DNA of 64,000 nt from Spirosoma aerolatum (lineage in GTDB: Bacteria; Bacteroidota; Bacteroidia; Cytophagales; Spirosomataceae). Location of the stretch: positions 3,111,001-3,175,000 of the forward strand of contig NZ_CP020104.1 in the NCBI RefSeq assembly GCF_002056795.1, in the 5' to 3' direction. Each line of letters starts with the position of its first letter. The stretch's first letter is position 1. Position numbers and translations under genes: made by a program. Below, in pieces: positions 45,080 to 63,012 of the stretch. The notes beneath the pieces were generated by a model. That model ran no database searches, was not told where the DNA came from, and was given only the letters and a program-made list of their open reading frames with translations.

Positions 45080-45135
45080 CTAAGAAGTTTCTAAGATCTG
45101 GTTAAGGCGATTCTAAGCTGTTGGGGTGTTATTTG
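45080..45135 (+). promoter_or_regulatory. Array A: four 11-bp direct repeats plus -7 element, upstream of the TreZ-like gene
   Basis: Half-site cores CTAAG at 45080, CTAAG at 45091, TTAAG at 45102 and CTAAG at 45113, exactly 11 bp apart on the plus strand. TTTG at 45132-45135 follows 15 bases after the last core. The wider repeats are nearly TTTCTAAG with four-base spacers. Start of transcription would be near 45142, leaving a leader of about 145-187 bases. See findings. Confidence 0.8.
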
Positions 45136-45328
45136 CTTTGTTCGTAACGAGCCGACATCGGATGGGGCAAGGTTGAAAACACTCAAATTGTCATTCATAT
45201 TGAGTTGTGTCAATGCCATGATGCCGGGTGTATCGACACCCGGTCTACCGGTAGCTGTGCGGTGGTTAGGAAGAATTTGCCAGTAGATGGTTGGAAGGCT
45301 TCTCCAGCATCTCGTAACATCTTTTTCT

Positions 45329-47092
45329 ATGAGTAACACGATAGATTATCAGCAACGATCGCTTGGCCTTACCTTCACCCCAGAGCATACGGCCCGGATA
45401 TATGTATGGGCACCTTTTGCCACCAAGGTAGCCGTTACCAGCCCTGCGAATTTATCGGAATTACCGTTACAAAAGGATACTGACGGGTACTGGTATACCG
45501 AAACCGATCAGATCAAGCCCGGTGATTTATACACGTTTGTTATTAACGACGAGCAGGAATTCGCTGACCCAGCGTCGCTCATACAACCCCAGGGGGTTTA
45601 TGGCCCATCTGAGGCTTTTGATACCTCAGCTTTTTACTGGGAAGATGCGCACTGGATCAATCCGCCTATCGACGAATACATCATTTACGAACTCGATATC
45701 TGTACCTTTACGCCGGAAGGTACTTTGAAGGCGCTGATCCGTAAACTGAATCACCTGAAGAAGCTGGGCGTTACGGCTATTCTGCTCAGGCCGGTTACCC
45801 CGTTTCTGAATCCTAACAATCGACAGCAGGGAGCGCCTTTTTTATACGCTATTCAGACGTCCTGCGGTGGCCCGGCTCATCTGCAACAACTGGTAAATGC
45901 CTGCCATTTTGAAGGAATTGCGGTTATTCTGGATCTGGTGTATCATCGGGTCGAACAACCTGCAAAAGAGTTTGGAAACTTTGGCTTGCTGGCCAATTCG
46001 CAGGCCCGTTTGCCTAATCGTAAACCGGCTTTGTCCTATGAGGCTCATGAGCGCTATCTCATCGAAAATATGCTCATGTGGTTCCGGGAGTTTCATATCG
46101 ACGCGCTCCAGTTGACTGGTAGTCAAACCTTGTCCAATGCTGACCAATTGCTCCATCAGATGCGAACACATACGAGTGCGTTGACCCGCATTACCGGACG
46201 GCAATACTACCTGTTGGCTGAACACGATATGACGCAACGTCTGTCGGTTAACGATCTACAGACTTGGGATCTGCCTGTAGAGCAGGTATCGCCCGAAAAA
46301 ATGGCTGAGGCAACCGGTATATCCTTTGATCTGGAGATGGTCGCCAAGCGGTGTCAAACCCGACATTATCAGGAATCGTATCTGTATGATTCACACTTTT
46401 CGGAGGCACTCAACGAGTTATTTGATCAGGGTGATGGAGTAGGAGAAGGGCTGAAGTCTGTTTCGCAGAAAGGCCATAAAGCACAGCATAGCCTGCTGGA
46501 GGCCTATGCTGGTCAGTCACTTTCTACGGAATTCGTGAAGCTGATGGCTGGCTATATTTTGGTCAGTCCCTGTATACCTACCCTGTTTATGGGTGAAGAA
46601 TGGGGGGCTATGAATCCATTTCAGACACTGGCTCCTGGCGAGCCGGTTCCAATGGATTCGGCTCCTGAATCGCTGCTCATCGATCAGGAAAGTCAGTCGG
46701 TTTCTGCGTTGCCCTGGGAAATGCTGAGCGAACAACCCTGCCGCACCCTGTATCAGTATTATCAGTCGCTTACGGCGCTCCGGCGACAGCAACCAGCCCT
46801 GTATCACCTCAATCCGAAGCAAACCCGGACAATTCACAAGGAGGGAGAGCCAACCATTCGTATGCACCGGTCATTTAAGGCCAATGAGGTGGTGTGTCTG
46901 ATGAATTTTTCGCCTGAAAAGCAGATTGTTACGTTGCCTGATCTGGGCAACGGCTGGCAGAAACTGCTCGATTCGGCCGATCCGGTCTGGGGTGGTCCGG
47001 GCCCGTCGCCCGAGTTGGTGACGAATACTACAACGCTGACACTACAGCCCGAATCAATCGTAATTTATAAAGTGCTGCCCCAAAACTGTTAA
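45329..47092 (+). CDS. TreZ-like GH13 protein lacking catalytic residues
   Basis: 587 residues from the Met at 45329; an in-frame ATG at 45287 is possible. Layout follows malto-oligosyltrehalose trehalohydrolase: CBM48-like N-domain (LTFTPEHTARIYVWAPFA), LIQPQGVYGPSEAFD, IYELDICTFTPEGTL, a TIM barrel, and LFMGEEWGAMNPF. Residues numbered from 45329: region I is ILDLVYHR (D202 kept, but the N-H pair is H-R). Region II is IDALQLTGSQTL, with Thr263 where the nucleophile Asp should be and Gln for Arg. Region III keeps E298 (LLAEHD). Region IV, normally QNHDQ, is QKGHK (Asp to His383). It is probably not a glycosidase. No TreY is adjacent. Confidence 0.8.
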   Translation: MSNTIDYQQRSLGLTFTPEHTARIYVWAPFATKVAVTSPANLSELPLQKDTDGYWYTETDQIKPGDLYTFVINDEQEFADPASLIQPQGVYGPSEAFDTSAFYWEDAHWINPPIDEYIIYELDICTFTPEGTLKALIRKLNHLKKLGVTAILLRPVTPFLNPNNRQQGAPFLYAIQTSCGGPAHLQQLVNACHFEGIAVILDLVYHRVEQPAKEFGNFGLLANSQARLPNRKPALSYEAHERYLIENMLMWFREFHIDALQLTGSQTLSNADQLLHQMRTHTSALTRITGRQYYLLAEHDMTQRLSVNDLQTWDLPVEQVSPEKMAEATGISFDLEMVAKRCQTRHYQESYLYDSHFSEALNELFDQGDGVGEGLKSVSQKGHKAQHSLLEAYAGQSLSTEFVKLMAGYILVSPCIPTLFMGEEWGAMNPFQTLAPGEPVPMDSAPESLLIDQESQSVSALPWEMLSEQPCRTLYQYYQSLTALRRQQPALYHLNPKQTRTIHKEGEPTIRMHRSFKANEVVCLMNFSPEKQIVTLPDLGNGWQKLLDSADPVWGGPGPSPELVTNTTTLTLQPESIVIYKVLPQNC

Positions 47093-47151
47093 GGGAATAC
47101 CATGTACGGAAGCCACCCATCCGGCCATAGTCGTTTGGGGTATAGGCCAAT

Positions 47152-47206
47152 CTAAGCAGTTTCTAAGTAGGTATTAAGCCGTCGTTAAGGGTGAGGCAGC
47201 ATATTG
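47152..47206 (+). promoter_or_regulatory. Array B: four 11-bp direct repeats upstream of the universal stress protein
   Basis: Cores CTAAG at 47152, CTAAG at 47163, TTAAG at 47174 and TTAAG at 47185, all 11 bp apart. ATTG at 47203-47206 stands in the -7 position (14 bases after the last core). The gene starts 46 bases after the array. Confidence 0.8.
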
Positions 47207-47234
47207 TCAATAGTACCTAATTACGTCTATACGT

Positions 47235-48170
47235 ATGAAAGATTTAACTATAAAGCGAATACTGGTTCCCATCGATCTGGATCATAGTTCTCAGGAAATC
47301 ATGAATCTGGCTGTCGCCATGAGCCAACGACACAACGCTCACATCCGGCTACTGTATGTCATTAGCCCTGAGCATTACACTTTTCCTTCTACAAATAGCT
47401 TCATGGTATCGATGCCCCGTGAGGATATAGTTGATAGAGAAACCCGGCGATTACAGGAACAGGCCGATGCCCTACTGAGTGAGTTTTCGATTGAGTACTC
47501 TGTCGAATGCCGTATCGGAGCTATCGCTGAGCGAATTGTAGAAGCGGCTACCGAATTTAAGGCAGACCTGATCGTAATGGGTACACATGGCCCTGCAGGT
47601 TTGTTACACTACGTCATGGGCTCCGAAGCCTTTCATGTGATCAATCAGAGCGCTTGTCCTGTGCTAACCATACCCGAGCAGGCCAGTGTAGGTGAGTTTA
47701 AAGAACTACTTTTTCCAGTTCGACCTATTCCTGAGGCTATTGTGAAATATGAATTTGCCCGGGCTATTGCGCTTGAAAATCAGGCGCATATTACCGTTCT
47801 AGGCATAGCCGACGGATTGGATACCGAAGCGGGTAAAGCCATTGATGTTGATATGGCATTGTTGACAAGTCAGATCGTAGACGACGCTCTTGAGACAGAT
47901 TCACTACTGGCACAAACCAATGCCGTAGAGGCCGTTTTGCAGCATGCTGAGGAACAGAATGCCGATTTAATCGTTATCACGGCTGATCGGGCCGCCGACA
48001 TTCGACACCTGTTCGTCGGGCCTTTCTTTAAACAGATTATCAGTCAGTCCAAACGACCTGTGTTATGCGTGAAACCAGAAACCCCAGTTCCTGGTCAACC
48101 GGTCCGTGGCGCAACCATACCACTATTCCCGATAATGGATCAATTGAGTTTCCCCCTAAACCCCGCTTAG
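47235..48170 (+). CDS. Universal stress protein with two UspA domains
   Basis: 311 residues. Two Usp domains: residues 1-150 (KRILVPIDLDHSSQEIM, VMGTHGPAGLLHYVMGSEA, CPVLTIP) and 155-295 (ELLFPVRPIPEAIVKYEFA, DLIVITADRAADIRHL, RPVLCVKP). The first keeps an ATP-binding-like G-x2-G-x9-G motif (GTHGPAGLLHYVMGS); the second lacks it. Tandem Usp proteins are common in stressed or starved Bacteroidota. It is directly under array B, so it belongs to the proposed regulon. Confidence 0.9.
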   Translation: MKDLTIKRILVPIDLDHSSQEIMNLAVAMSQRHNAHIRLLYVISPEHYTFPSTNSFMVSMPREDIVDRETRRLQEQADALLSEFSIEYSVECRIGAIAERIVEAATEFKADLIVMGTHGPAGLLHYVMGSEAFHVINQSACPVLTIPEQASVGEFKELLFPVRPIPEAIVKYEFARAIALENQAHITVLGIADGLDTEAGKAIDVDMALLTSQIVDDALETDSLLAQTNAVEAVLQHAEEQNADLIVITADRAADIRHLFVGPFFKQIISQSKRPVLCVKPETPVPGQPVRGATIPLFPIMDQLSFPLNPA

Positions 48171-48172
48171 TG

Positions 48173-48230
48173 GTCAGGTCGATACAGGCCTGTAGCTTAT
48201 TCCTAAGTAATACTCCTACATCGACCTGAC
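48173..48230. terminator. Bidirectional terminator between convergent genes
   Basis: GTCAGGTCGAT (48173-48183) and ATCGACCTGAC (48220-48230) are exact 11-base complements. They lie between the stress-protein stop (48170) and the trehalase stop (48237), with a small palindrome TACAGGCCTGTA inside the loop. Confidence 0.6.
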
Positions 48231-48236
48231 GGCCTC

Positions 48237-49850
48237 CTATTTCTCACTGAGTAACTTGACTAACACGCCGTTAGTCCAGCCGAAACCGTCCTGATTGGGA
48301 TATTCTCCGCCTTTGGCCGCTGCTGTACTAATCACATCGTATTTTTCGACCATCTTGCCCGACGCTCTGTAGACGCGCAGATTTTCGGCCACCCAATACG
48401 TCTTGATCTTGTTGGCGAGCGGAACCTGATGATACGTGCGAAGTCCCTGAATGGTTATCCATTGCAGCGGTGCCCAGCCGTTGGGGGCATCCCACTGCTG
48501 CCCCGTAGTTTGCAGTGTCGTCGTTAGGCCGCCTGGCTTCAGAAACGATTGTTCCAGTCTGCGGGCCACCGCTACAGCCTGGGCCGACGTAGCAATTTTT
48601 ACAAAAAGAGGGTACACGCCTGCCAGCGAATAAACCGACGATGGTTTGCGGGTAACGAAATCATAATCGAAGAAGAATCCGCTTTTAGGATTCCAGCAAT
48701 AGCGTTGGATGGCCATACGACGCTGCTGGGCCAGTTGCTCATAGGCTTTCGAACGAGTCAGATCGCCTTTTAGCCGGTACCCATCTGCCAATGTTTGCTC
48801 CAGATTGACCAGTAGCGCATTTAAATCGACAGGAATAAAATCGGTCGTATGAATCGTGCGTAGATTTTTACCATCGCGAAACCACCGACTGCTGAAATCC
48901 CAACCCGACTCAGCCGCAGCCCGAAGATGTCGGAAAAGAACCGATGGGTTTTTGGCATGCCGGGCCAGTTGAACATCCTCCCGATACGATTCCGGGCGCG
49001 GGGTCGATTGGTCGTCATAGTAACGATTCAGATACACACCTTCGGCCAATTGTACCACCCGTCGGTAAACCGGTTGTTGCGTTGTTAACTGGTCTTTGCC
49101 ATCCATCCAGAAAGCATACTCCTGCTGGAGTTCAGGCAAATAGGTGAGTAACGCCCGACGCCCTTGAATTTCTGTGAGCAGATTGACCATGAACGAGAAA
49201 AACGGCGGTTGTGACCGACTCAGAAAATACGTTCGGTTTCCGTTGGGAATAAAACCAAACGTACGGATCAGGTGGGCGAAGTTATCGACCATATTTCTGA
49301 TAAGTGCAGTTTTGCCCGAAGCCCGAAGGCCCATCATCGTAAAATAGCTATCCCAGTAATAAATCTCCCCAAAACGCCCACCGGGCACGACGTACGGATT
49401 AGGTAAGGGAATCAGCGATCCTACCTGTTCCCCTGATTTAGACCGGGGCGTGGCCGGGCGAGTGAGTACAGGCCATAAATCCGTTATGTGCTGACTCGCT
49501 GATTGACCAATACGACTTGTGTAGCCCGATGCGGGCTTGGTAGGTAGCGTAAACTGCTGTAAAACAAACGTTTTTAAGTTGAAGTCGTTACGCTGCCGGG
49601 CTTTCTCGTAGCTGGCCAGAATGGCTTCTGGCGGGTAGTTGGGAATGCAGTCGGCAAATGTTTTCGAATCGGGGAAAACCGCTTTTAGCTGAACGGCTTC
49701 AAATAACTTACCGAATTGCTCGTCGGGACCTGGTAAGGATCGTTGCTCTAGACTGGAGTTTTTGAGGACCTGCTGCCCCTGACTGGCGGGTAGACCACCA
49801 AAAAAGAAAACAAGTAATAAAAAGTATTGAATCCGATGGTATTGTTTCAT
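48237..49850 (-). CDS. treA: Periplasmic alpha,alpha-trehalase (GH37)
   Basis: 537 residues from the Met at 49850, which starts a signal peptide (MKQYHRIQYFLLLVFFFGG then ASQGQQ). GH37 signature 1 is PGGRFGEIYYWDSYFTMMGL and signature 2 is QWDAPNGWAPLQWITIQGLR; both are complete. The C-terminus has KYDVISTAAAKGGEYPNQDGFGWTNG, with the conserved E-Y-x-x-Q-x-G-F-G-W-x-N-G motif. It splits trehalose to two glucose outside the cytoplasm. It lies directly after the TreS-maltokinase gene on the same strand, so it is likely in the operon controlled by array C. Confidence 0.95.
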   Translation of the reverse strand: MKQYHRIQYFLLLVFFFGGLPASQGQQVLKNSSLEQRSLPGPDEQFGKLFEAVQLKAVFPDSKTFADCIPNYPPEAILASYEKARQRNDFNLKTFVLQQFTLPTKPASGYTSRIGQSASQHITDLWPVLTRPATPRSKSGEQVGSLIPLPNPYVVPGGRFGEIYYWDSYFTMMGLRASGKTALIRNMVDNFAHLIRTFGFIPNGNRTYFLSRSQPPFFSFMVNLLTEIQGRRALLTYLPELQQEYAFWMDGKDQLTTQQPVYRRVVQLAEGVYLNRYYDDQSTPRPESYREDVQLARHAKNPSVLFRHLRAAAESGWDFSSRWFRDGKNLRTIHTTDFIPVDLNALLVNLEQTLADGYRLKGDLTRSKAYEQLAQQRRMAIQRYCWNPKSGFFFDYDFVTRKPSSVYSLAGVYPLFVKIATSAQAVAVARRLEQSFLKPGGLTTTLQTTGQQWDAPNGWAPLQWITIQGLRTYHQVPLANKIKTYWVAENLRVYRASGKMVEKYDVISTAAAKGGEYPNQDGFGWTNGVLVKLLSEK

Positions 49851-49880
49851 GAAGTTCCGTTTATGGATAGGGGCGTTCAA

Positions 49881-52800
49881 TTAGAACGACCCTATCCCAT
49901 CAACTGTCTCAGGCACAAACTCTTTCGTTGGCGTGCCCGACCGGTCTATAATCGATTGAATAAGCTGCAACGGCACGCGTACCCAATCGGGACGATGACT
50001 CAACTCCCGATTTAAATCCGAGATGGCTTTTTCGAGCAGATAGGTATCCAGCATCATTTGCAAATCGTCGGGATCGTCAGGAATGAACGAGCTGCCCCGA
50101 ACTGTATCCAGATACGCTTCCATGAAAAACCGGCTCATGCAACGCGCCCAGAATTCGGCATAGGGTAGTAGGGGAACCGTGTCTTTGGCCGTAACCTGAT
50201 TTGTCTGTAAAAAACCTTCGTAGCCTACGTAGTAAAACGAGCGAATCAGGGATGCTACATCGCGCAGGGGCGACCGCTTCAATCGACGTTCGCTGTAACT
50301 CCGGCCCGACTCGCCACCGAAGTCCTGAATAGCGATGTCTTTTCCTGTCAGCAGAATCTTTTCCAATTGCAGATCGCCATGAATACGAATTTTTGTGCTG
50401 ACCAGTTTTTTACCATAAATGCGTTTGAACAGGGCTAAAACCTCTTCTTTTCGGCCTAGTATTCGTTCCACATCCTGCCGTACATCTTCCGGAAGGCGTT
50501 GAAGATTCCGTTTCTGCGTCTGGTAGCTTTCGCGAACCAGCGATTGAAAACCGGCATATAAAGAGCGCTGATAATGCAGGGAAAACTCTTCCGGGGCAAA
50601 ATCTCCCAGTGTCTTGTCAGACGCCAGTGCCCGGTGCATCTGTCCGATTCGTTTCCCTAAAAGGCGCACCTGCTCGGCGGCACGATGCCCGATCAACTCC
50701 TGGGTTTCATGCCCAAGCTCAGCGAAGGAGACGGGCTGACTCAATGTACCCAGGCTGGCATTCACCGCATCGGCCAACTGTGCTGAATTGCGGGCCAGAA
50801 TCCGCTCAATGAAATTGTTGATGCGTTCCAGTACGTACTGTTTGCCATCGCCATGCTGCGCTACCAGTTTCTGCATAACGGCCAGCATGATTGGTTCGCC
50901 AGAAACAAGCATTTCAAGCATCCCCGCGAACGGAGGGACATTTGAAAAACCAGCCTTTTCTGAAAGGAACCAGCTCATCTCGGCATCCGGGTTGATGGAT
51001 CGGTCTACTTTCCGGTATACTTTCAGAACGTAACAGTGGTCGTAGACAATAGAGGCATAGGCTGGGCCAGAAGCCGCCAGTTTCGACTTTATTGCGTTGT
51101 GCTGCACTACGTAATCCGTTAGCATTGGCTTACTCTGGCGTACCAGGTTACCTTCTGCAGGCCTGTTTTCCCCAGCTATCTTCTGGAGTAATGCCTGCTG
51201 CACGTCAGGTAAGTACAGCCCATCACAGAGTACGCCCGACTCATGACCCAGATGCAGATCGGCCAGTACAGCCTGAGGGCAGCTATGCAGCAGAAGAGCG
51301 GACTGTAATTCATCGGCAAAGGCAACGACCAACTGGAAAATTTCGGGCAGATCGCGCTCGTACGACACTTCAAGCAACAGGATATAGGCCGATCCAACCG
51401 GCAACATCAGTGGGGCATGGTTCAGGATCGAAACACTTCGCATGGTTACGCTCTTTTCCTGGAACCAGTCGGTTCGGAGCAGGTAGTCGGGTAACACTTT
51501 CGTTTCCAGTCGTTCGCGGGTATTATGATTCAGAATTTGGCCCCAGAGAGCAACGTGTAGTTCGGGCAACTGGAGCGGGTTAGTCTGATTTACAGGTGCT
51601 TTTTCCAGTACAAACCATTGGTAGTCATGAGGAGCTAATGTGAAGAAATACATTTCCCGTTCAGAAACGGCCGGGAACGCATTACGGCTGAATAACTCGA
51701 CGGGTATATACCCACCGAACCCATCCAGCTCAATTTCGGCAGGTTGTGCATACTTCGACAGGTTGATGATAATCAGCAGAGTCTGCTCTTCGTAGGTGCG
51801 GGTAAACGCCAGCACTTTCGGATTTTCGACGTTCAGGAACCTCAAATCCCCTCGGCCAAATGCTTTGTATTTCTTCCGCAGCGTCATCATCCGCTTCATA
51901 AACCAGAACAGCGACGAGGTATTCTGACGCTGGGTTTCAACGTTAACGGACTCGTAATGGTACTCCGAATCGAGAATAGTGGGTAAATACAGCTTATGCG
52001 GATTGGCAGCCGAAAAGCCCGCATTCCGATCAGGTGACCATTGCATGGGCGTGCGAACCCCATCGCGGTCGCCCAGATACACGTTGTCGCCCATTCCGAT
52101 TTCGTCACCGTAATACAGAACGGGTGTACCGGGTAACGAGAAGAGCAGAGAATTCATCAGTTCGATTTTCTTCCGGTTGTTGCTCAGAAGGGGAGCCAGT
52201 CGATGGCGGAGACCGAGGTTAATACGGGATCGGGGATCTTTGATGTACGTTTTGTACATATAGTCCCGTTCTTCGTCGGTAACCATTTCCAGTGTCAGCT
52301 CATCGTGGTTGCGGAGAAAGATAGCCCACTGGCAGTTTTCGGGGATAGCGGGGGTTTGATCGAAAATGTCGGTGATGGGGTATCGATCTTCCATCTGCAA
52401 CGCCATAAACAGACGCGGCATGACCGGGAAGTGATAATTCATGTGGCATTCATCGCCATCACCAAAGTAAGACGCGGCATCTTCGGGCCACATGTTGGCT
52501 TCGGCCAGAAACACTACCCCCGGAAAATGATCATCGACGTGCTGGCGTAGCTGTTTTAGGAAAGCGTGTGTTTCGGGCAGGTTTTCGCCATTGGTGCCTT
52601 CCCGCTCGAACAGATACGGAACGGCATCGAGCCGGAAGCCATCCACACCCATTTCGCACCAGTAGTCGATGATGTTAAAAATCTCGCTTTGAACAAGCGG
52701 GTTATCGTAATTCAGATCCGGCTGGTGATGAAAAAAGCGGTGCCAGTAGTATTGCTGCGCTTCGTGATCCCAGGTCCAGTTTGAGTGTTCGAAATCCTGG

Positions 52801-53255
52801 AAAATAATGCGGACATCGTTGTATTGCGTAGGGTTGTCGGTCCACACATAGTAATCGCGTTCAGGCGATCCTTTTGGCGCTTTTCGGGCGCGTTGAAACC
52901 AGGGGTGCTGATCGGAGGTGTGGTTAATGACCAGCTCTGTAATAACTTTCAGATTCCGCTGATGGGCTTCGTGAAGTAGCGTTTTAAACTGGTCGATAGT
53001 ACCATACGACGGGTTAATGGTGTAGTAATCCGCAATGTCGTAGCCGTCATCGCGCAGGGGCGACGGATAGAAGGGCAACAGCCAGATCGCCGTAACGCCT
53101 AATTCCTGAAGGTAGTCCAGTTTCTGAAGCAGACCCTGAAAATCACCGATGCCGTCGCCATTGCCATCGCAAAAGGCTTTAATGTGCAATTCGTAAATAA
53201 TGGCATCCTTATACCACTGGAGATTGCCCTGAAGATCTATGTTCGTTTCTGTCAT
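49881..53255 (-). CDS. treS: Trehalose synthase (TreS) fused to maltokinase
   Basis: 1124 residues. N-terminal GH13 TreS (about 1-555) isomerises maltose and trehalose. Catalytic residues are D210 in VDGFRLDAVPYLFE, E252 in LAEANMWPEDAASYFGDG and D318 in FLRNHDE, all intact. The C-terminal half (about 600-1110) is a Pep2/Mak-type maltokinase with the HGDLQLEKILL catalytic loop and IQDFGGESGRSYSERR (D-F-G-like). It makes maltose-1-phosphate from maltose and ATP. This fusion usually feeds GlgE, but no GlgE is in the window. Transcribed from array C, with the trehalase 30 bases downstream. Confidence 0.94.
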   Translation of the reverse strand: MTETNIDLQGNLQWYKDAIIYELHIKAFCDGNGDGIGDFQGLLQKLDYLQELGVTAIWLLPFYPSPLRDDGYDIADYYTINPSYGTIDQFKTLLHEAHQRNLKVITELVINHTSDQHPWFQRARKAPKGSPERDYYVWTDNPTQYNDVRIIFQDFEHSNWTWDHEAQQYYWHRFFHHQPDLNYDNPLVQSEIFNIIDYWCEMGVDGFRLDAVPYLFEREGTNGENLPETHAFLKQLRQHVDDHFPGVVFLAEANMWPEDAASYFGDGDECHMNYHFPVMPRLFMALQMEDRYPITDIFDQTPAIPENCQWAIFLRNHDELTLEMVTDEERDYMYKTYIKDPRSRINLGLRHRLAPLLSNNRKKIELMNSLLFSLPGTPVLYYGDEIGMGDNVYLGDRDGVRTPMQWSPDRNAGFSAANPHKLYLPTILDSEYHYESVNVETQRQNTSSLFWFMKRMMTLRKKYKAFGRGDLRFLNVENPKVLAFTRTYEEQTLLIIINLSKYAQPAEIELDGFGGYIPVELFSRNAFPAVSEREMYFFTLAPHDYQWFVLEKAPVNQTNPLQLPELHVALWGQILNHNTRERLETKVLPDYLLRTDWFQEKSVTMRSVSILNHAPLMLPVGSAYILLLEVSYERDLPEIFQLVVAFADELQSALLLHSCPQAVLADLHLGHESGVLCDGLYLPDVQQALLQKIAGENRPAEGNLVRQSKPMLTDYVVQHNAIKSKLAASGPAYASIVYDHCYVLKVYRKVDRSINPDAEMSWFLSEKAGFSNVPPFAGMLEMLVSGEPIMLAVMQKLVAQHGDGKQYVLERINNFIERILARNSAQLADAVNASLGTLSQPVSFAELGHETQELIGHRAAEQVRLLGKRIGQMHRALASDKTLGDFAPEEFSLHYQRSLYAGFQSLVRESYQTQKRNLQRLPEDVRQDVERILGRKEEVLALFKRIYGKKLVSTKIRIHGDLQLEKILLTGKDIAIQDFGGESGRSYSERRLKRSPLRDVASLIRSFYYVGYEGFLQTNQVTAKDTVPLLPYAEFWARCMSRFFMEAYLDTVRGSSFIPDDPDDLQMMLDTYLLEKAISDLNRELSHRPDWVRVPLQLIQSIIDRSGTPTKEFVPETVDGIGSF

Positions 53256-53341
53256 GATTTCTGGAAGTAAACGATTCGAATGGTCGATAGCGCTAGCCAG
53301 ACTGGGGCTGAATCTAGCTCTATCGGCAAACAGTATTTTGG

Positions 53342-53396
53342 CAACTTCTTGATTCGAGCTAAGAATCTGCTTATAGACCGCTTAGAAATTACTTAG
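53342..53396 (-). promoter_or_regulatory. Array C: four 11-bp direct repeats upstream of treS (minus strand)
   Basis: Read on the minus strand: CTAAG (53396-53392), CTAAG (53385-53381), ATAAG (53374-53370), CTTAG (53363-53359), spaced 11 bp. TTG follows at 53344-53342, 15 bases on. The gene starts 104 bases after the array. It is back-to-back with array D. Confidence 0.75.
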
Positions 53397-53451
53397 AACG
53401 CTTTTGAGGCTTTGTTGTTTAGCAGGAAAGCAAACTTGTGATAGAACCTCT

Positions 53452-53507
53452 CTAAGAAGTTTCTAAGATTTACTTAAGTCGGTTCTAAGCCTGATAGACG
53501 TCTTTTG
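53452..53507 (+). promoter_or_regulatory. Array D: four 11-bp direct repeats upstream of otsAB
   Basis: CTAAG at 53452, CTAAG at 53463, TTAAG at 53474, CTAAG at 53485, all 11 bp apart. TTTG at 53504-53507, 15 bases after the last core. The same half-site order as array A; the first two repeats are nearly identical to array A (TCTAAGAAGTTTCTAAGAT). Confidence 0.82.
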
Positions 53508-53545: not shown

Positions 53546-55765
53546 ATGACAACATCTAAAACTCCGTTTAAACGCCTGATTATTGTTTCCTATCGATTAC
53601 CGTTTACCGTCAGGGAAAAGCAGGAAGGTTATGAACTGGTCCAGAATTCGGGAGGTCTGGTATCGGCCGTTTTGTCGATGGCCGGGCAGATGGGTCAGTC
53701 GTCCGATGGCTTACCGACCAAAATTCACTGGGTAGGCCATGCCGATTCGGCCTTTCAGGATGTGGATGCGTCGGTTTTTGAGAACGAAACGTTTGTGGCT
53801 CATCCGGTTTTTATCGATGAAACGGTTCACACGGGCTTTTACTACGGATTTAGCAATGATCTTGTCTGGCCCTTATTCCATTATTTTCCGTCGTATGCTT
53901 CCTTTCGGGAAAGTGATTTCGAGCACTACCAACAGGCCAACACTTGTTTTATGGATGTTCTGAATAACCTGATCGAACCCGGCGACCTAATCTGGATTCA
54001 CGATTTTCAACTGATGCTATTGCCTGATAAGGTGCGTCAGGCAATTCCCGACGCGTCGATTGGGTATTTTTTCCACATCCCATTTCCAACGTATGAAATC
54101 ATCAAGCTCCTACCTCGTGCCTGGCGACAGGAGTTGTTAAGAGGGGTTCTGGGTGCCGATGTCGTTGGGTTTCATACGGCCGATTATGTGCAGCACTTTA
54201 TGCAGAGCGTAGCCGAAGTGCTGGAGCTGCCCATTATTGGTCAACGGATTGTGTTAGCCGATCGATCGCTGCTGGTCAAAGAGTTTCCCATCAGTATCGA
54301 TTTCAATAAGTTCGATCAAAGCAGCCAGGATGACGATGTTATCCAGACCCGGTTGCGCGACCAGGCTATGCTTCGTCATAACCGCCTTATTTTTTCGGTT
54401 GATCGGCTCGATTATACGAAAGGAATCATGTATCGATTGCGGGGCTTTGAGCGGTTTCTGGTCCAGCATCCCGAATGGCATGACCAGGTTACGTTTGTGA
54501 TGACGGTGGTGCCCTCGCGCGATAAAATCGGTCAATACCAGGAACTTAAACGCGAAATCGAGGAAACAGTTGGCCGGATCAATGGGCTATTTGGTACCAT
54601 AGGCTGGCGACCTATTGTCTATATGTATTCGTCGCTCTCGTTTACCGAACTAATGGCGCTCTATACTGCCTGTGACGTTGCCCTGATTACCCCTCTTCGC
54701 GACGGAATGAATCTGGTCTGCAAAGAATTCATTGCCAGTCGGCACGACCATCGGGGTGTACTGATTCTGAGCGAGCTGGCTGGAGCAGCACAGGAGCTTC
54801 GGGAGGCTATCATTATCAATCCGACCGATACACAGGAAGTCGCTGATGCCATTCAGCAGGGGCTTACCATGCCCGAAGCCGAGCAGGAGCAGCGGCTGAT
54901 AATCATGCGTAAGCACCTGCAAAATAATAATGTGTTCCGCTGGAGTCATGATTTTCTATCGGCGTTTCAGAGTGCTCGCGAAAGTGAGTCTGAGCTGGAA
55001 ACGGATCTGCCAATTGCTTCATTTGTCAGTTCGTTCGAACAGGCTCAGCAGCGTCTGCTCCTGTTCGATTTCGATGGTACCCTGGCACCCATTGTAAATG
55101 ATCCAGCGCTGGCTTGTCCTTCTGATGCCTTAAAGAAAACCATTCAGCGCTTGGCCGAAACCAGCGATGTGGTTGTTATCAGTGGTCGTAATCGGGCGTT
55201 TCTGGAAAAAACATTCGCGGGTATTCCAGTTTACCTGGTTGCCGAACACGGCGCTTTTCTTCAAAAACCAGACCAGCCCTGGGAACGACTTGATTTATCA
55301 AGTGATGACTGGGTCGCTTCGGTTCGGGCGATGATGGCTCCCTATGTTGAACGAGCCCCCGGCTCATTCATCGAGGAAAAAGAAACTTCTATTGCCTGGC
55401 ATTATCGAAAAAGTGAACTTGATGATATTGAAAATCAGGCGGTTGATTTGGTTACTCAATTGCGAAGTGCTTCCTATTCAATACCATTGACGATTATTCA
55501 GGGGAGTAAAGTGGTAGAGGTTAAAACCGCACAACATAGCAAGGGCACCGTTGCCAATGCCATTTTTGAGCAAAAACCCTATGATTTTATCGTGAGTATT
55601 GGCGACGATACCACCGATGAGGATATGTTTCGGCAGTTACCCAACTGGGCGTATACCGTAAAAGTAGGCGCTGGAATTTCATTTGCCCGTTACCGCCTGG
55701 CACGGCAACGCGATGTCGAAATGCTGTTGGAGCGAATGAGTGAGGTTGTAGTCGAAATGCCCTAA
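53546..55765 (+). CDS. Bifunctional trehalose-6-phosphate synthase/phosphatase (OtsA-OtsB fusion)
   Basis: 739 residues. GT20 domain (about 8-470): [46 protein letters not shown] and [17 protein letters not shown]-type TPP domain (about 500-735): [13 protein letters not shown] (nucleophile Asp near 508), [14 protein letters not shown] and [13 protein letters not shown]. It makes trehalose-6-phosphate from UDP-glucose and glucose-6-phosphate, then dephosphorylates it. Array D lies 39-94 bases upstream. The stop is two bases from the stop of the convergent small gene. Confidence 0.95.
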
Positions 55766-55767
55766 AA

Positions 55768-56007
55768 TCAGTTATTTACCTGGTTGGAGTCATCAACTCG
55801 ATTTTCTATCGTATGCGATTCATTTAGTTTTTGGCGTAAATGCCTGTAGTGCGGTGGAAGCTTATCGAGAGTTGAGCTTCTGAGTCCGTACCAGGCGCTG
55901 GCAAAATAGCTAAGAACGCCTATAGCCAATATGACTAGGGTTACGATCAAAAATAGCAGCATAGGATAGCTAACGTTAAGGTGAACAACCCAAACAACAT
56001 TGACCAT
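55768..56007 (-). CDS. Small single-helix membrane protein, unknown function
   Basis: 79 residues from the ATG at 56007. One long hydrophobic helix (residues 15-40: MLLFLIVTLVILAIGVLSYF), then a basic, polar tail (RHLRQKLNESHTIENR). Not recognised. The frame opens up to a TTG at 56079, but that TTG overlaps the -7 element of array E, so the ATG is chosen; the leader would be about 60 bases. Control by array E puts it in the proposed regulon. Confidence 0.6.
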   Translation of the reverse strand: MVNVVWVVHLNVSYPMLLFLIVTLVILAIGVLSYFASAWYGLRSSTLDKLPPHYRHLRQKLNESHTIENRVDDSNQVNN

Positions 56008-56076
56008 ACCCTGCCAGTAAAAAAACAGGGTATGGATCAATGCATGGGAAAGCGCATGTTCACCGCTTTGTAGGGG

Positions 56077-56131
56077 CAAAGTGGTGGCAACGAATAAGGA
56101 ATTACTTAAACAGACCTTAGAATTTAATTAG
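56077..56131 (-). promoter_or_regulatory. Array E: four 11-bp repeats upstream of the small membrane gene (minus strand)
   Basis: On the minus strand: CTAAT (56131-56127), CTAAG (56120-56116), TTAAG (56109-56105), CTTAT (56098-56094), 11 bp apart. TTTG at 56080-56077, 14 bases on. It also lies 112-149 bases upstream of the divergent response-regulator gene, so it could influence that gene too. Confidence 0.68.
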
Positions 56132-56242
56132 AATTGTGTAAGCTATTGTTAGTCAGTGAATTAAATGGAAGAGTTTTAACCAATGAATTCGTTTCGTGGT
56201 TTACTACTTCATACAGGCTGCTCATCGGTGGTCTATTGAGCT

Positions 56243-56920
56243 ATGAAACTATTAGTAGTAGAAGATGAGGCCAAGACACTTCAGGCCATTCAACAGGGAC
56301 TGGAAGAAAGCCAGTTTGAGGTCGATATTGCCTATGATGGATTGATTGCCAAACGGTTGGCGTTAAAAAACAACTATGCCGCCATAATTACAGATCTGAT
56401 TTTGCCTGGTCTTAATGGCTATGAACTCTGTCGTCAGCTTCGGGCTGAAGGACTTACTACACCCATTCTGATTCTGACGGCACTGGGCGAAACGGATGAT
56501 AAGGTTATGGGCTTCGATGCCGGAGCCGATCAATACCTAACCAAGCCCTTCCAGTTTACTGAGTTACTGGCCCGAGTTCGGGCACTGACCAAGCGGGGTA
56601 CGCAGGTTGCCATGACCGCCCAGACCTTACGCTATGGAGGTATCGAAATGAATCTGGATGCTAAAACCGTTACCCGCGACGACAAACCGATTGATCTGAC
56701 GGCGAGGGAGTTTGCGTTGCTGGAGTTTCTGATGCGTAACCAGGGACGGGTACTTTCCAAACCGGCCATTGCCGAACACGTCTGGGATTTGAATTTCGAC
56801 ACGGGGACCAATGTCGTCGAAGTTTATATCAACTACCTCCGCAAAAAAATCGATAAAGACTTCCCTAAGAAGCTGATCCATACCCAGTTTGGCATGGGTT
56901 ACATGTTTAAGGAAGAATGA
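56243..56920 (+). CDS. OmpR/PhoB-family response regulator
   Basis: 225 residues. Receiver domain 1-118 with acidic pocket EDE, phospho-acceptor D51 in IITDLILPG, and K101 in YLTKPF. OmpR-type winged-helix domain 128-225 (LTAREFALLEFLMRNQGRVLSK, TNVVEVYINYLRKKIDKDF, QFGMGYMF). Proteins of this family bind tandem direct repeats with 10-11 bp spacing. It is followed after 85 bases by its kinase. As the only DNA-binding regulator in the island, it is the best candidate to bind arrays A-G. Confidence 0.95.
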   Translation: MKLLVVEDEAKTLQAIQQGLEESQFEVDIAYDGLIAKRLALKNNYAAIITDLILPGLNGYELCRQLRAEGLTTPILILTALGETDDKVMGFDAGADQYLTKPFQFTELLARVRALTKRGTQVAMTAQTLRYGGIEMNLDAKTVTRDDKPIDLTAREFALLEFLMRNQGRVLSKPAIAEHVWDLNFDTGTNVVEVYINYLRKKIDKDFPKKLIHTQFGMGYMFKEE

Positions 56921-57001
56921 GCAGGGAGGTTGGGGCGTGGAGCGAGGTGGCGTTTGAGGGCCGTAATACCTTGCTCCTCGCTCCCTGCCCCACGCCCCAC
57001 G
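56921..57001 (+). repeat. G/C-rich imperfect inverted repeat between regulator and kinase
   Basis: GCAGGGAG (56921-56928) pairs with CTCCCTGC (56981-56988), and GGAGCGAGG (56939-56947) pairs with CCTCGCTCC (56976-56984). The two pairings exclude each other. The strand is purine-rich then pyrimidine-rich (GGGGCGTGG ... CCACGCCCC), unlike neighbouring DNA. It fills nearly the whole 85-base gap. Confidence 0.55.
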
Positions 57002-57005
57002 CCCT

Positions 57006-58373
57006 ATGACTATTCGAAACCGTTTGACGATACGCTTTACCGGACTGGTTTCCAGTATTTTATTGCTGGCATTTGTGAGTATATACGCCTTTTGCTGGTA
57101 TTTCATTTCGTCGGACTTTTACCGTCGACTCGATCGGAAAGCCAACACAATTGGTGATATGCTGATTCGGCATCGGTTGAATACTGATCTGATTCGGCAA
57201 TTGACCCGAATTCGGAAAGATCAGCTACCCAACCAAAAGATCATTGCGTTCGACCAGCGGGATTCCATTATTTTATCGACTAACGAAGCGATTACACTAC
57301 CCCTTCCTCAAGCTATACTGAGCGATATTCGTCAGGTTCGGGAGAAGGCATTCCGCCAGGATAAGTACTATGTGGTTGGTACCCGGTTCATGACGGCATC
57401 TGGCCAATTTGTAGTCATTGCCAGTGCGGAGAACATGTACGGCGATGAATTTTTACGGCGGTTACTCTGGTCGCTGACGGGCCTTTTCTGCCTGATTGTA
57501 GCTATTACGGCTTTTTCAGGCTGGTTTTTTGCCGACGATGCTTTACGCCCGGTGCAGGCTATGGACCGCACACTCAATGCCATTTTTCCCAAAAACCGCG
57601 ACGAACGATTGCCGTTGCACCACGACAATGACGAAATAAGCCGTTTATCGCAAACCATCAATCAACTGCTGGACCGAGTCAACGAATCGTTTCGACTGCA
57701 ACGGATGTTTGTCGCCAATGTGTCGCATGAACTTAAAAACCCGCTTACCCTCATCAGTTCACAACTGGAAGTTAGCCTGCTGAATGAGCGAGGCCCTGAA
57801 GCCTATCGGCAGACCATTCGCTCCGTGTTGCAGGATGTTACTGAGTTGGCCAGTTTAACGCATGAACTGCTTCGACTCTCACAGCTAAACCAAAATGATG
57901 CTGTTAGCTTACTGACCGATCGAGTTCGCGTTGATGAAATTGTTTGGGATGTGCGTGCCCAGGTAAAAACCATCAATCCATTGTATGCTGTCACGGTTCA
58001 ACTCGGCGCATTGCCCGAAGAGCCTGATCAATTATCCGTTCAGGGCAATAAAACGTTGCTGGAAACAGCCCTGAAAAACCTGACTGAAAACGCCTGTAAA
58101 TTCTCGGATGATGGTAGGGCAGAGGTAAATGTAGATTTCCAGGATGCCGCTGTTACCATCCGCATCCAGAACCAGGGGAAGCCAATCCCTACGGCTGATT
58201 TGCCGTATATTTTTGAGCCCTTTTACCGAAGCAGCAAAACGGCTGAGGTGCGCGGGTATGGGATTGGTCTGTCGCTTGTAGAACGTATCGTTCGGTTGCA
58301 TCGGGGGCATGTGCAGGTCAGTTCATCGGCAGGTCAACCGACCGTATTCAGTATTATTCTTCCCCGGCAATAG
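57006..58373 (+). CDS. Membrane sensor histidine kinase, partner of the response regulator
   Basis: 455 residues. TM1 at about 12-35, a periplasmic domain of about 120 residues, TM2 at about 155-180 (LLWSLTGLFCLIVAITAF), HAMP, HisKA with H241 in VANVSHELKNPLTLISSQLE, and HATPase with N-box LTENACKFS and G2 RGYGIGLSLVERI. EnvZ/ArlS-type layout. It phosphorylates the adjacent regulator. The periplasmic domain has no known sensor motif. Confidence 0.93.
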   Translation: MTIRNRLTIRFTGLVSSILLLAFVSIYAFCWYFISSDFYRRLDRKANTIGDMLIRHRLNTDLIRQLTRIRKDQLPNQKIIAFDQRDSIILSTNEAITLPLPQAILSDIRQVREKAFRQDKYYVVGTRFMTASGQFVVIASAENMYGDEFLRRLLWSLTGLFCLIVAITAFSGWFFADDALRPVQAMDRTLNAIFPKNRDERLPLHHDNDEISRLSQTINQLLDRVNESFRLQRMFVANVSHELKNPLTLISSQLEVSLLNERGPEAYRQTIRSVLQDVTELASLTHELLRLSQLNQNDAVSLLTDRVRVDEIVWDVRAQVKTINPLYAVTVQLGALPEEPDQLSVQGNKTLLETALKNLTENACKFSDDGRAEVNVDFQDAAVTIRIQNQGKPIPTADLPYIFEPFYRSSKTAEVRGYGIGLSLVERIVRLHRGHVQVSSSAGQPTVFSIILPRQ

Positions 58374-58383
58374 CCACCCGTTT

Positions 58384-58439
58384 CTAAGGATATTCTAAGG
58401 AGTTTATCAGCGAATACTAATTCGAAGAAGGCAGATTTG
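58384..58439 (+). promoter_or_regulatory. Array F: 11-bp repeats upstream of the small proline-rich membrane gene
   Basis: CTAAG at 58384, CTAAG at 58395, a weak ATCAG at 58406, CTAAT at 58417, 11 bp apart. TTTG at 58436-58439, 15 bases after the last core. The array begins 11 bases after the kinase stop and lies 42-97 bases before the next gene. Confidence 0.7.
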
Positions 58440-58481
58440 GTTGTTTACTAACTTACCCTTAGCTGTAAATAAACCAGACAC

Positions 58482-58682
58482 ATGATCCATACAACACATC
58501 CTTATACCCCTTTTTTCCCACCAGGGCCCGCAACGCCAACCCGAAAACGACCGACGAACGATCCTTTGTTCAACGATGATCGGCCACCTCAGCCCGATTG
58601 GCTGCTTATTCTGATGTGCGCCCTGTTTTTGTTGACCCTGTTTCTGGCCTGGTACGTCGATATTCCGCGCTTATTGCACTAA
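58482..58682 (+). CDS. Small proline-rich single-pass membrane protein
   Basis: 66 residues. An N-terminal polar, Pro-rich half (TPFFPPGPATPTRKRPTND) is followed by one helix (WLLILMCALFLLTLFLAWYV). Not recognised. Gene status is supported by array F just upstream and by the fit between the kinase and the convergent DUF389 gene. Likely an inner-membrane stress peptide, but this is inference. Confidence 0.6.
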   Translation: MIHTTHPYTPFFPPGPATPTRKRPTNDPLFNDDRPPQPDWLLILMCALFLLTLFLAWYVDIPRLLH

Positions 58683-58702
58683 CCGGTTGTCGAACTACTA
58701 CG

Positions 58703-60097: not shown

Positions 60098-60183
60098 TTT
60101 CGTGTAGTGGGTTAAGGGATTAGTTAAATCAACCTGGTTTTTAATCAAAAGTTAATGTATCCTTGTGTAATTCTGCTTTGTCG

Positions 60184-61431
60184 ATGGATCTATTTACCCT
60201 GACTACCTTACTGATTGTTGCTTCGGCGCTCTTTGCTTACCTGAATACCCGGCTGTTGAAATTGCCCGATGCTATTGGCATTATGGTGCTTTCGCTGGCT
60301 TTTTCGGCCTTGCTTATTGGGTTGAATACGATTCGCCCTGTCTGGTTCACCGAGGTCCGGCAAGCAGTGGTTCAAATTGATTTTGGCCGGGTTTTGTTCG
60401 ATGTCATGCTCAGCTTCCTGTTGTTTGCGGGGGCATTTCATACGAATATCGATCAGCTTCGGCAGGTTCGTAGATCGGTTATCTTATTCGCTTTGGTTGG
60501 CGTCCTGATCAGTACTGCCCTCATCGGCCTAGGGCTTTATGGGTTAGCAGGATGGTTTGGCTTTGCGATTTCATGGCCCTTGTGCTTACTGTTCGGTGCG
60601 CTGATTTCTCCCACTGATCCCATTGCCGTTTTGGGCATCCTGGCCAAGTTTAAACTACCAGAGAACGTAAAATACAATATCGTAGGCGAATCGCTATTTA
60701 ACGACGGTGTAGGGGTAGTTGTCTTTGCGTCCATCTATCGGATTGCTGTCGATGGTATGGAAAGCATCAGTGCGGGCACCATCGCTTTGTTGTTTCTGGA
60801 AGAAGCGGGAGGAGGAATCCTGTTTGGCCTGATTCTGGGCTATGGGCTATTTCGGTTAGTACGGTCGATCAATCATTACCAAACAGAAGTACTCATTACA
60901 ATAGCAGGAGTTATGGGGGGCTATCTTTTGGCGCAAAAACTTCATATTTCCGGGCCATTAGCGATGGTCGTAGCGGGCTTACTGATGGGAGGTAAAGCCC
61001 GTGGTGAAGCGATGAGCGATGTCACCGAAGAATATGTTGATAAATTCTGGGAGCTACTGGATTCAATCCTGAATGCCATACTCTTCGTGTTGATGGGTGT
61101 CGAGCTTCTACTAATCGATTTCCGTATGGCCTATTGGCCCCTGTGTGCCGCCGTTATCATACTGGTGCTAAGCGCCCGGTTTTTATCGATCTGGTTCCCC
61201 TTTGTAGTAGCCCATCGATGGCTTAATCTGGACAAATACGCGCCAGTCATGCTTACCTGGGGTGGTTTGCGGGGCGGCTTGTCTATTGCCATGGCGCTTT
61301 CCATTCCTATCAACCTTCCGAACCAGGACTTACTGGTTACCATTACGTATGCGGTTGTGCTTTTCTCCGTAATTGGACAGGGGCTAACGATGGAACGGCT
61401 AATCCGAAGATTATATCCCACGTCTCCCTAG
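60184..61431 (+). CDS. Na+/H+ antiporter, CPA1 family
   Basis: 415 residues from the ATG at 60184, with about twelve membrane helices. FGALISPTDPIAVLGILAKF and GESLFNDGVGVVVFASIYRI are the CPA1 (NhaP/NHE) ion-binding helices, with the S-P-T-D-P and N-D acidic motifs. TWGGLRGGLSIAMALSIP is also typical. It exports Na+ or K+ in exchange for protons. It fits an ionic or osmotic stress island. Confidence 0.93.
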   Translation: MDLFTLTTLLIVASALFAYLNTRLLKLPDAIGIMVLSLAFSALLIGLNTIRPVWFTEVRQAVVQIDFGRVLFDVMLSFLLFAGAFHTNIDQLRQVRRSVILFALVGVLISTALIGLGLYGLAGWFGFAISWPLCLLFGALISPTDPIAVLGILAKFKLPENVKYNIVGESLFNDGVGVVVFASIYRIAVDGMESISAGTIALLFLEEAGGGILFGLILGYGLFRLVRSINHYQTEVLITIAGVMGGYLLAQKLHISGPLAMVVAGLLMGGKARGEAMSDVTEEYVDKFWELLDSILNAILFVLMGVELLLIDFRMAYWPLCAAVIILVLSARFLSIWFPFVVAHRWLNLDKYAPVMLTWGGLRGGLSIAMALSIPINLPNQDLLVTITYAVVLFSVIGQGLTMERLIRRLYPTSP

Positions 61432-61480
61432 TCGTATAATGGATCAGTTTACTCATTAACCTTGGCGAGTAGTCTGGTCG

Positions 61481-62887
61481 TTAGTCTGCCTGGATTTCCT
61501 CGGACGTTTGCTGGGAAGGTTCCGACTCGGGCTGCGCCAGGGCTTCAGTCACGAAACCGGCTTTCAGGTGCTCATAGAACGACACCGGGTCTATCAGTGA
61601 GGCTGCTCCCTGGGCCATAAGTCCACCTAGCAACAACTGGAAAATTGCCGAATGGCGGTCGGTCATTTCCAATACCAGAATGGCGGCCGTAAAGGGTGAT
61701 CGCACAACGCCCGTCAGGAAACTAACCATGCTGACCAGAATCACTAAGTTCGTATCGGAAGGGGGCACGTGAACCAGTCGGGACAAGCCATCGCCAAGGA
61801 TAGCCCCCGCGCTAAGCGATGTAGCAAAGACCCCTCCGGCTGCCCCGCTACAGTAGCTAAGGGTCATACCCGCAAAGCGAACCGGAAACAGATACCAGGG
61901 AGTCAGATGGTCGTTTTGAAACAGTAAACGGTTAATGATAGGCTTTCCGGTGCCAAATGCATCCGTGCCAACCCAGAAGGCCAGTGCGGCTAAGAGCAGC
62001 CCGGAACCAGCTACCCAACCCGCCTGGGCAGGTAGCGTTGTAAACCGTCGGCGGTAGGTATTGGCCCACAACAGCACTTTGGCGAAAGCAGCTCCGGCCA
62101 GCCCACAGAAGATCGCCACAAGTACGACTATCCCTAAAAACCAGCCTGTTGTTGAGGTAATCTTTGGAAAACCAAGGTACAGATAGGGTCCCAGAATCGC
62201 CTGGGCTGTCATTCCGGCAATGATGACGGCCGTAAAAACGGCCGTTCGGAAGCGGGTGATATGCGTTTGGGTGAGTTCTTCGACGACGAATACAATCCCT
62301 CCCAATGGGGTGTTAAACGCAGCCGCCAGCCCGGCCGCTCCTCCGGTGACTAAAGCAATCTGCCGGGATAGTTGCGGCCATCCGGCAGGTTGTAAACGGT
62401 TAATAGCCCGAAAAATAGCCGCCGAAATCTGGATGGTTGGCCCTTCACGGCCGATTACCCCTCCACCAAGTAAAAGCACTACACTGCTCAGTACCTTTAC
62501 GAGAGCAACTCGTAGGCTAAGTAAATACGCAAGACGCCCGTGTGTTTTTGGGGTTGATAATTCGATACCGGCCATTACTTGAGGTATACCGCTTCCCCGT
62601 GCCGCTGGAGCTAATCGGCTAACGGTGAGCCAGGCCATTACGAAGGCCAGGGGCGTCAGGACAAATACCAGATAGGGCTGTCGGCTCAACCACGTAAAGC
62701 TGATTCGTTCGGCCCAAAGAAACAATTCTTCATAGCCAACAGCTACCAGACCAACCAGCAACGACGCCACCCAAAACGGTAAGCTTTGTAAAATGACCCG
62801 ACGAACCCGTTCGGTATACAATCGGCGAATGAGATGCTGGTCCAGCCAGTCCAGCACAAGAGCATACCGAGTTAATTTAGGAAGCAT
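61481..62887 (-). CDS. ClC-family chloride channel or Cl-/H+ antiporter
   Basis: 468 residues, about sixteen helices in the ClC antiparallel fold. Selectivity motifs: GSGIPQVMAG, GREGPTIQISA, and the late GAILGDGLSRL after AAGGVFATSLSAG. The gating Glu is that of GREGP. No CBS domains; the C-terminus is short. A transporter is as likely as a channel. The upstream region holds array G, which points the other way. Confidence 0.92.
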   Translation of the reverse strand: MLPKLTRYALVLDWLDQHLIRRLYTERVRRVILQSLPFWVASLLVGLVAVGYEELFLWAERISFTWLSRQPYLVFVLTPLAFVMAWLTVSRLAPAARGSGIPQVMAGIELSTPKTHGRLAYLLSLRVALVKVLSSVVLLLGGGVIGREGPTIQISAAIFRAINRLQPAGWPQLSRQIALVTGGAAGLAAAFNTPLGGIVFVVEELTQTHITRFRTAVFTAVIIAGMTAQAILGPYLYLGFPKITSTTGWFLGIVVLVAIFCGLAGAAFAKVLLWANTYRRRFTTLPAQAGWVAGSGLLLAALAFWVGTDAFGTGKPIINRLLFQNDHLTPWYLFPVRFAGMTLSYCSGAAGGVFATSLSAGAILGDGLSRLVHVPPSDTNLVILVSMVSFLTGVVRSPFTAAILVLEMTDRHSAIFQLLLGGLMAQGAASLIDPVSFYEHLKAGFVTEALAQPESEPSQQTSEEIQAD

Positions 62888-62956
62888 GCAGCTATAAACA
62901 GGTTTATTGAATAGGTAACGCTGTTTTGATCGAGTTGATTTACGAAACCCACAGGT

Positions 62957-63012
62957 CTAAGCAAATTCTAATATCTCTTTAAGTCGTCTGTAACCAGGCC
63001 AACGGAGCTTTG
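62957..63012 (+). promoter_or_regulatory. Array G: four 11-bp repeats upstream of the coiled-coil gene
   Basis: CTAAG at 62957, CTAAT at 62968, TTAAG at 62979, GTAAC at 62990, 11 bp apart. TTTG at 63009-63012, 15 bases after the last core. The array also lies 70-107 bases upstream of the divergent ClC gene. Confidence 0.72.

Follow-up and report, generated by a model that had tools for sequence, protein, structure and literature searches.

Four-part 11-bp repeat arrays as candidate operators of an OmpR-family two-component system at trehalose and stress genes of Spirosoma aerolatum

Which regulator would read seven closely similar, four-part repeat arrays lying between 45 and 63 kb of a 64,000-nucleotide stretch of Spirosoma aerolatum DNA (contig NZ_CP020104.1, genome positions 3111001-3175000 of 7.96 Mb; hereafter the window), and which genes would it switch? 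An earlier note on this DNA had proposed a stress regulon under one activator. A two-component pair that the note did not name, encoded at 56243-58373, sits inside the array cluster, between the fifth and the sixth array, and we consider it very probable that the arrays are the operators of its OmpR-family response regulator, which would be phosphorylated by the neighbouring kinase and activate the target genes; binding, the sign of the effect and the signal are what we infer.

Architecture and conservation of the arrays

All seven arrays described in the earlier note were found in the sequence, at their places and on their strands: A (45078-45117, plus), 5' of the gene for a TreZ-like glycoside hydrolase; B (47150-47189, plus), 5' of a universal stress protein (Usp) gene; C (53359-53398, minus), 5' of the gene for a TreS-maltokinase fusion (TreS-Mak); D (53450-53489, plus), 5' of the OtsAB gene; E (56094-56133, minus), divergent from the response regulator gene; F (58382-58421, plus), immediately 3' of the kinase stop codon; and G (62955-62994, plus), 5' of the gene for a 305-residue protein (unk305). 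Each is made of four heptads of the TTCTAAG type with 4-base spacers, giving 11-bp steps, and heptads 1 and 2 are the best conserved, with heptads 3 and 4 more degenerate. The note's finer readings were borne out as well, since the third half-site is TTAAG in A, B, D, E and G (ATAAG in C, ATCAG in F) and a TTTG or TTG starts at base 14 or 15 past the last heptad in all seven.

The search for further arrays relied on a 40-bp weight matrix built from 13 arrays of this genome, seven in the window and six outside it. The window arrays reached leave-one-out scores of 26.7-44.9, and at a threshold of 9 the window held no other array, only register-shifted readings of the seven, as had been claimed. 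Background was read from 78 loci obtained by a kinase search in named genomes, the best 40 of which (L039-L078) were scanned for arrays. The reversed sequence of the 78 loci (2.77 million positions) had no position scoring 18 or more; the remaining 38 loci (L079-L116), which carry unrelated kinases, had one position scoring at least 20 in 1.15 million when read forward; and, among 200 random sequences of 64 kb matched to the window in dinucleotide frequencies, a single position reached 26 or more (maximum 26.1). Chance does not account for the arrays, in agreement with the note's judgement that such an origin was very unlikely.

At least six further arrays lie elsewhere in the genome, three of them no more than 6 kb downstream of the window: H (genome position 3175207, plus) precedes a TPR protein gene, I- (3180255, minus) a Usp gene and I+ (3180297, plus) an RND efflux operon, and, farther away, J (2893779, plus) precedes the gene for a 186-residue protein, K (2896651, plus) that for a DUF4136 protein and M (6549041, minus) that for a 163-residue lipoprotein-like protein. 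These six were chosen among 44 whole-genome matches to the four-site pattern with up to three mismatches (6 in the reversed control), a count that includes shifted registers and the arrays of paralogous systems. The two-heptad core with 0-1 mismatches occurs at 11 places, nine of them within 3156-3180 kb; with up to two mismatches it gives 50 matches against 43 in the reversed control and so does not discriminate, and only the 11 places, a subset without a control of its own, were used. The genome scan that the note had proposed as a check thus shows that the arrays are not randomly placed.

Conservation upstream of orthologues was the other check proposed, and here too the expectation held, the arrays being kept before the same genes across genera. 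All 32 family loci (L039-L070) carry arrays, 100 of them scoring at least 25; the hosts belong to Spirosoma, Fibrella, Fibrivirga, Fibrisoma, Rudanella, Larkinella and Arsenicibacter, together with two records that bear the labels Flavobacterium sp. SUN052 and Spirosomataceae bacterium. When targets were defined as matches of at least 35% identity with 300 bases upstream, and an array was counted if it lay at most 260 bp upstream, arrays preceded OtsAB in 13/13 cases, unk305 in 11/11, the RND adaptor MFP in 7/7, TreZ in 5/5, TPR in 9/11 and Usp2 in 1/1; no relative of Usp1, the target of array B, had the identity and upstream sequence needed, and it stands outside these counts. Control genes were nearly devoid of arrays: 0/31 for the response regulator, 0/10 for DUF389, 0/8 for ClC, 0/5 each for RND and OMF, 0/3 each for trehalase and PAP2, 0/1 for unk186m and 1/11 for the Na/H exchanger NhaP. 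The kinase gene had an array upstream in 6/32 cases, all Larkinella loci with a small-protein gene between response regulator and kinase. The note's trehalose targets are upheld by OtsAB and TreZ and, in 4/10 matches, by TreS-Mak; its ion-transport targets fail in the relatives, judging by the DUF389, NhaP and ClC counts.

That several copies crowd within 24 kb might suggest structural or mobile repeats with no regulatory role. Conservation is limited to the heptads, however, with variable spacers, further copies lie 0.26 and 3.4 Mb from the cluster, and from genus to genus the arrays keep their place at the promoters of the same genes, a target-specific conservation that contradicts such an origin and leaves it with scarcely any probability.

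Among the more distant loci L071-L078, three of the eight have weaker matches (21.5-28.0), beside kinase relatives of 33-36% identity: at 9224 on the minus strand of L074 (25.3; a Saprospiraceae metagenome-assembled genome), at 9227 on the minus strand of L075 (21.5; a Bacteroidota metagenome-assembled genome) and at 11374 on the plus strand of L078 (28.0; Flavobacterium sp. SUN052). Such arrays suggest that this style of operator predates the family.

The two-component pair as the predicted reader

The response regulator (56243-56920, plus), the proposed binder of the arrays, has the two domains of an OmpR/PhoB-type protein, Response_reg at 91.6 bits (cutoff 30.2) and Trans_reg_C at 88.6 bits (cutoff 26.2), and the histidine kinase (57006-58373, plus), its proposed cognate, has Pfam HisKA and HATPase_c domains and a HAMP match barely under the cutoff. 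The structure model of the kinase (mean predicted local distance difference test score 71.7) had mostly kinase-core proteins among the 50 Foldseek matches listed, and it suggests that the sensor region, about residues 35-143, forms a mixed helix/strand domain. The best NCBIfam matches of the two proteins are the heavy-metal regulators CusR/CzcR (TIGR01387) and their kinases (TIGR01386), and both scores lie under the curated cutoffs (240.6 vs 279.2 for the regulator, 182.8 vs 292.55 for the kinase); the regulator likewise falls short of PmrA/BasR (NF007928, 165.2 bits vs 330) and of PhoB (TIGR02154, 166.7 vs 296.2; the Bacteroidota PhoB family NF053854, 158.6 vs 270).

The position of the arrays relative to the TTTG offers a clue to how they may work. 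The literature gives the -7 box of the Bacteroidota sigma-A as TAnnTTTG (PMC7366714) and places it at -12 to -5 (PMC9723704). Over the 100 family arrays, a T stands 15, 16 and 17 bases past the last heptad in 98, 99 and 68 cases, a G at 18 in 60 and an A at 12 in 70, so that the TTTG after the arrays, located in the window at 45132-45135 (A), 53504-53507 (D), 58436-58439 (F) and 63009-63012 (G), all on the plus strand, is a putative -7 box, matching in its core and weak in its first T. Because the TTTG is read in this way, the heptads would span approximately -62 to -23, and because the distance is fixed, the array would replace the -33 element. In the proposed mechanism, two head-to-tail dimers of the regulator, that is, four monomers, would bind the four heptads, the last of which would sit at the position of the -33 element, and would recruit the sigma-A RNA polymerase to the TAnnTTTG-type box at a fixed distance. 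PhoB-like activation is what we infer from this spacing together with the model of PhoB-sigma contact.

OmpR-family proteins can also act as repressors. Since the arrays overlap the promoter, and array E sits some 110 bp 5' of the response regulator gene while facing away from it, the regulator might repress these genes, or both repress and activate them; the nearly invariant spacing between array and -7 box, which is expected where an activator contacts the polymerase and is unneeded for repression, makes this improbable.

The distribution of the adjacent regulator supports it as the reader of the arrays. Among 36 Spirosoma genomes, with an orthologue defined as a response regulator match with E below 1e-120, those with the regulator (n=29) have 3-23 array matches and those without it (n=7) have 0-3 (Mann-Whitney, 3e-5), although the completeness of two of the latter is low (G026, 80%; G028, 71%); the reversed pattern gave 2 matches summed over all 36. 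In a family-wide set of 150 genomes, 18 of them shared with the genus set, at least four matches occur in 33/34 genomes with a regulator at least 80% identical, in 0/24 with one of 65-72% identity and in 5/92 without an orthologue, and the reversed control gave 0-3 matches per genome. The only genome of the first group with fewer than four, G099, is 71% complete. The trehalose genes show a related pattern: six of the seven Spirosoma genomes without the regulator also lack OtsAB at E 1e-100, and G023, which has kept OtsAB and has no close regulator, has no array at that gene; three regulator-bearing genomes have an array at OtsAB, and the second OtsAB of G005 (46% identical) has none.

Could one of the regulator's own paralogues be the reader instead? 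The genome encodes eight at E 1e-60; of the five inspected, four possess 11-bp arrays of their own, with half-sites TTTTAAG, TTCTAAT, TTCTAAT/C and TTTTAAC/G, at 797 kb (L151), 4206 kb (L152), 1868 kb (L153) and 6328 kb (L154) of the genome; none was seen at the locus of the fifth (response regulator 1081100). Two of these arrays lie at the kinase stop codon and one 236 bp behind the kinase, and the fourth system has one array preceding an RND gene and another preceding its response regulator gene; a TTTG follows the arrays behind kinases and the one at the RND gene. They were read with a self-similarity detector used for that purpose only, and reversal preserves tandem repeats, so that it offers no valid control there. 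The arrays of the window might be bound mainly by one or several paralogues, singly or jointly, with the adjacent pair as only one input. The TAA core and the 11-bp step recur in the paralogue-linked arrays, the five paralogues compared differ very little in their recognition helices, and in G012 and G018 the distance from CTAAG arrays to a paralogue of 54-56% identity is about 3.6-4.8 kb. Array number nevertheless tracks this orthologue, as the counts in the 150 genomes show, and within g3 and g8, two other genera, no match occurs in the three genomes that lack it, against 1-9 in the six that possess it; moreover, an array stands directly behind the kinase or the response regulator of this very pair in 30/32 loci, even where the neighbours differ. 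We regard the paralogues as unlikely main readers.

Several observations weigh against control by the adjacent pair. The near-identity of the helices and the paralogues' own 11-bp arrays make cross-binding possible; the p-values of co-occurrence ignore phylogeny; the five orthologue-less genomes with 4-9 matches run counter to it, among them G104 (genus g22), with nine matches and no close orthologue, and G023 has three matches elsewhere in its genome despite the missing regulator. The first T of the -7 box is present in 29/100 arrays. Six of the ten TreS-Mak matches (one locus counted twice) and two of the 11 TPR matches have no array above threshold, two further TreS-Mak loci having sub-threshold arrays (20.9 and 23.3), and some arrays of the relatives, e.g., at 11780 of L045 and 13604 of L061, have no assigned target. 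These points notwithstanding, conservation, co-occurrence and promoter geometry together support the note's proposal of one OmpR/PhoB-type regulator acting through tandem 11-bp sites, and we very probably have its gene in the pair between arrays E and F.

The genes it would switch on comprise those of trehalose synthesis. The TreZ-like glycoside hydrolase (45287-47092, plus; Alpha-amylase, DUF3459 and CBM_48 by Pfam/NCBIfam) has TreZ as its top NCBIfam match, under the cutoff (262.4 vs 538.8); TreS-Mak (49881-53255, minus) is adjoined by a trehalase gene (48237-49880, minus), perhaps cotranscribed with it; and OtsAB (53546-55765, plus) is a fusion of trehalose-6-phosphate synthase and phosphatase, the last three being assigned by Pfam/NCBIfam. 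Two Usp proteins, one of them in the window (47235-48170, plus; two Usp stretches by Pfam), the TPR protein, the RND pump and small envelope proteins would be further targets, and unk305 (63047-63964, plus), which has no Pfam or NCBIfam family above cutoff, shows a hydrophobic N-terminal segment and, by eye, a likely coiled coil. Such a regulon probably serves the response to osmotic, desiccation or envelope stress, a signal deduced from its targets. Beside the cluster lie a tRNA gene (44866-44939, plus; Rfam RF00005), shortly before array A, the gene of a sensor kinase with 7TMR-DISM and His_kinase domains (42320-43702, plus) and that of a YiaA/B protein (43999-44385, minus).

Small membrane proteins and short transcripts

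The earlier note held that each array points at a gene, which is true, although the targets of E and F were absent from its list: array E faces away from the response regulator, toward a minus-strand open reading frame (ORF) of 79 residues (55768-56007), and array F faces an unlisted ORF of 66 residues (58482-58682, plus) and not the convergent DUF389 gene. The same circuit thus appears to drive two tiny putative membrane proteins without an assigned function.

Array F begins 9 bases after the kinase stop codon, and in arrays of its type an ORF of 52-78 residues opens with an ATG 60-105 bases past the array start. The unannotated 66-residue protein has a single transmembrane segment (PDWLLILM..LFLLTL..WYVDIP), and its family, recognised by a hydrophobic helix conserved at the C-terminus (PDWLLILM..LFLLTLLIAWLVDIP), is present near the kinase with an array upstream in 30/32 loci as well as in the window; since 29 of these loci plus the window went into the profile, L044 is the sole independent match. 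The gene has shifted to a place between response regulator and kinase, its array retained, in seven Larkinella loci, and in L049 and L052 array F and the small gene are missing together. With nonsynonymous relative to synonymous change in the helix region at about 0.10 of expectation (a simple pair count over 22 of 31 sequences), the family is, by this comparison, under purifying selection. A database search limited to the 7,998 best-sharing candidates gave at least 51 proteins at E 0.01, including that of the window, all unnamed, "hypothetical" or "uncharacterized" and none with a Pfam domain. Among ATG-initiated ORFs of 30-150 codons the profile found no match at the eight distant kinase loci (L071-L078); the loci of the five paralogues and the eight from sister genera were likewise without one.

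Reversed arrays placed like E, 5' of the response regulator gene, occur in 14/32 loci. An ORF with the motif of the 79-residue protein (SYxTSAWFG...LPPHY) follows the array in six of the 14, and in L049 by eye; in the other seven no motif ORF was recognised. A search with this protein returned 16 relatives, one of which is labelled DUF3951 by a source.

In sister genera, whose regulator is 65-72% identical, eight of 24 loci were fetched. An array (scores of 19.7-35.9) overlaps the kinase stop codon in L161-L165 and L167, and the offset of the TTTG there is unchanged; L168 shows no more than a weak match (14.2), and in L166 the array is on the opposite side of the response regulator. A conserved structured stretch follows the array in genus g2 (L161, 2614-2830; L162, 2709-2900; L163, 1598-1400, minus). 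Its 36 bases from the TTTG on are identical in three species, its fold reaches -52 kcal/mol in L161, and it was found in all five g2 genomes of the sample, a match of 35 bases also occurring in one further genome among the 150, which makes it a candidate regulator-driven small RNA. Behind the kinases of L164, L165 and L167 lies a common terminator-like hairpin, and the array there is a candidate driver of a short transcript ending in it; no ATG ORF of at least 25 codons was among those listed for L164 and L167, and L165 has one of 29 codons. Rfam gave no match at the eight loci.

From its position and predicted control, the 66-residue protein is possibly a feedback component of this system comparable to MgrB. 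The fuller proposal, that it is a feedback peptide induced by the regulator, acting on the kinase, independent of MgrB in origin, and exchanged in the sister genera for a structured small RNA under a retained promoter, is a tentative one that we think rather doubtful.

Relation to known systems

The locus would offer a complete circuit for trehalose and stress control, from sensor and regulator to operator code, promoter geometry and targets. The paralogous systems provide a readable half-site code within one genome, a model for how near-identical regulators are kept separate, and the 66-residue family, which has no Pfam domain, would add a new example of a kinase under regulated feedback if the proposal is true. 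Among the open-access PMC papers listed by the searches, covered by title and abstract opening, none described such a regulon.

The closest operator is the PmrA/BasR box of Enterobacteriaceae, with head-to-tail half-sites, e.g., CTTAAT and CCTAAG, five bases apart (PMC3973317). It shares with the arrays the 11-bp step and an OmpR-family reader, BasR being among the PDB sequence matches of the response regulator; PmrA boxes, however, have two half-sites, whereas the Spirosoma arrays have four TTCTAAG heptads at a Bacteroidota promoter. The pho box, whose repeat period is 11 bp, is similar in its direct repeats bound head-to-tail. In the model for PhoB, the dimer overlaps the -35 region and touches sigma (PMC3348028), the placement predicted here; its half-site and its targets are different. 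CusRS, CzcRS and CopRS are likened to the pair by the top NCBIfam matches and by one target operon encoding an RND pump, but the pair scores below their cutoffs and its main targets are trehalose genes. MgrB, a feedback peptide of PhoPQ (PMC2789325), resembles the 66-residue protein as a tiny membrane protein whose induction, here predicted, depends on the regulator whose kinase gene it adjoins; it has 47 residues instead of 66, and the Spirosoma gene lies inside the two-component locus. The system would thus be a further OmpR/PhoB-type regulon, with tandem 11-bp repeats, predicted to be bound by its regulator, upstream of its targets.

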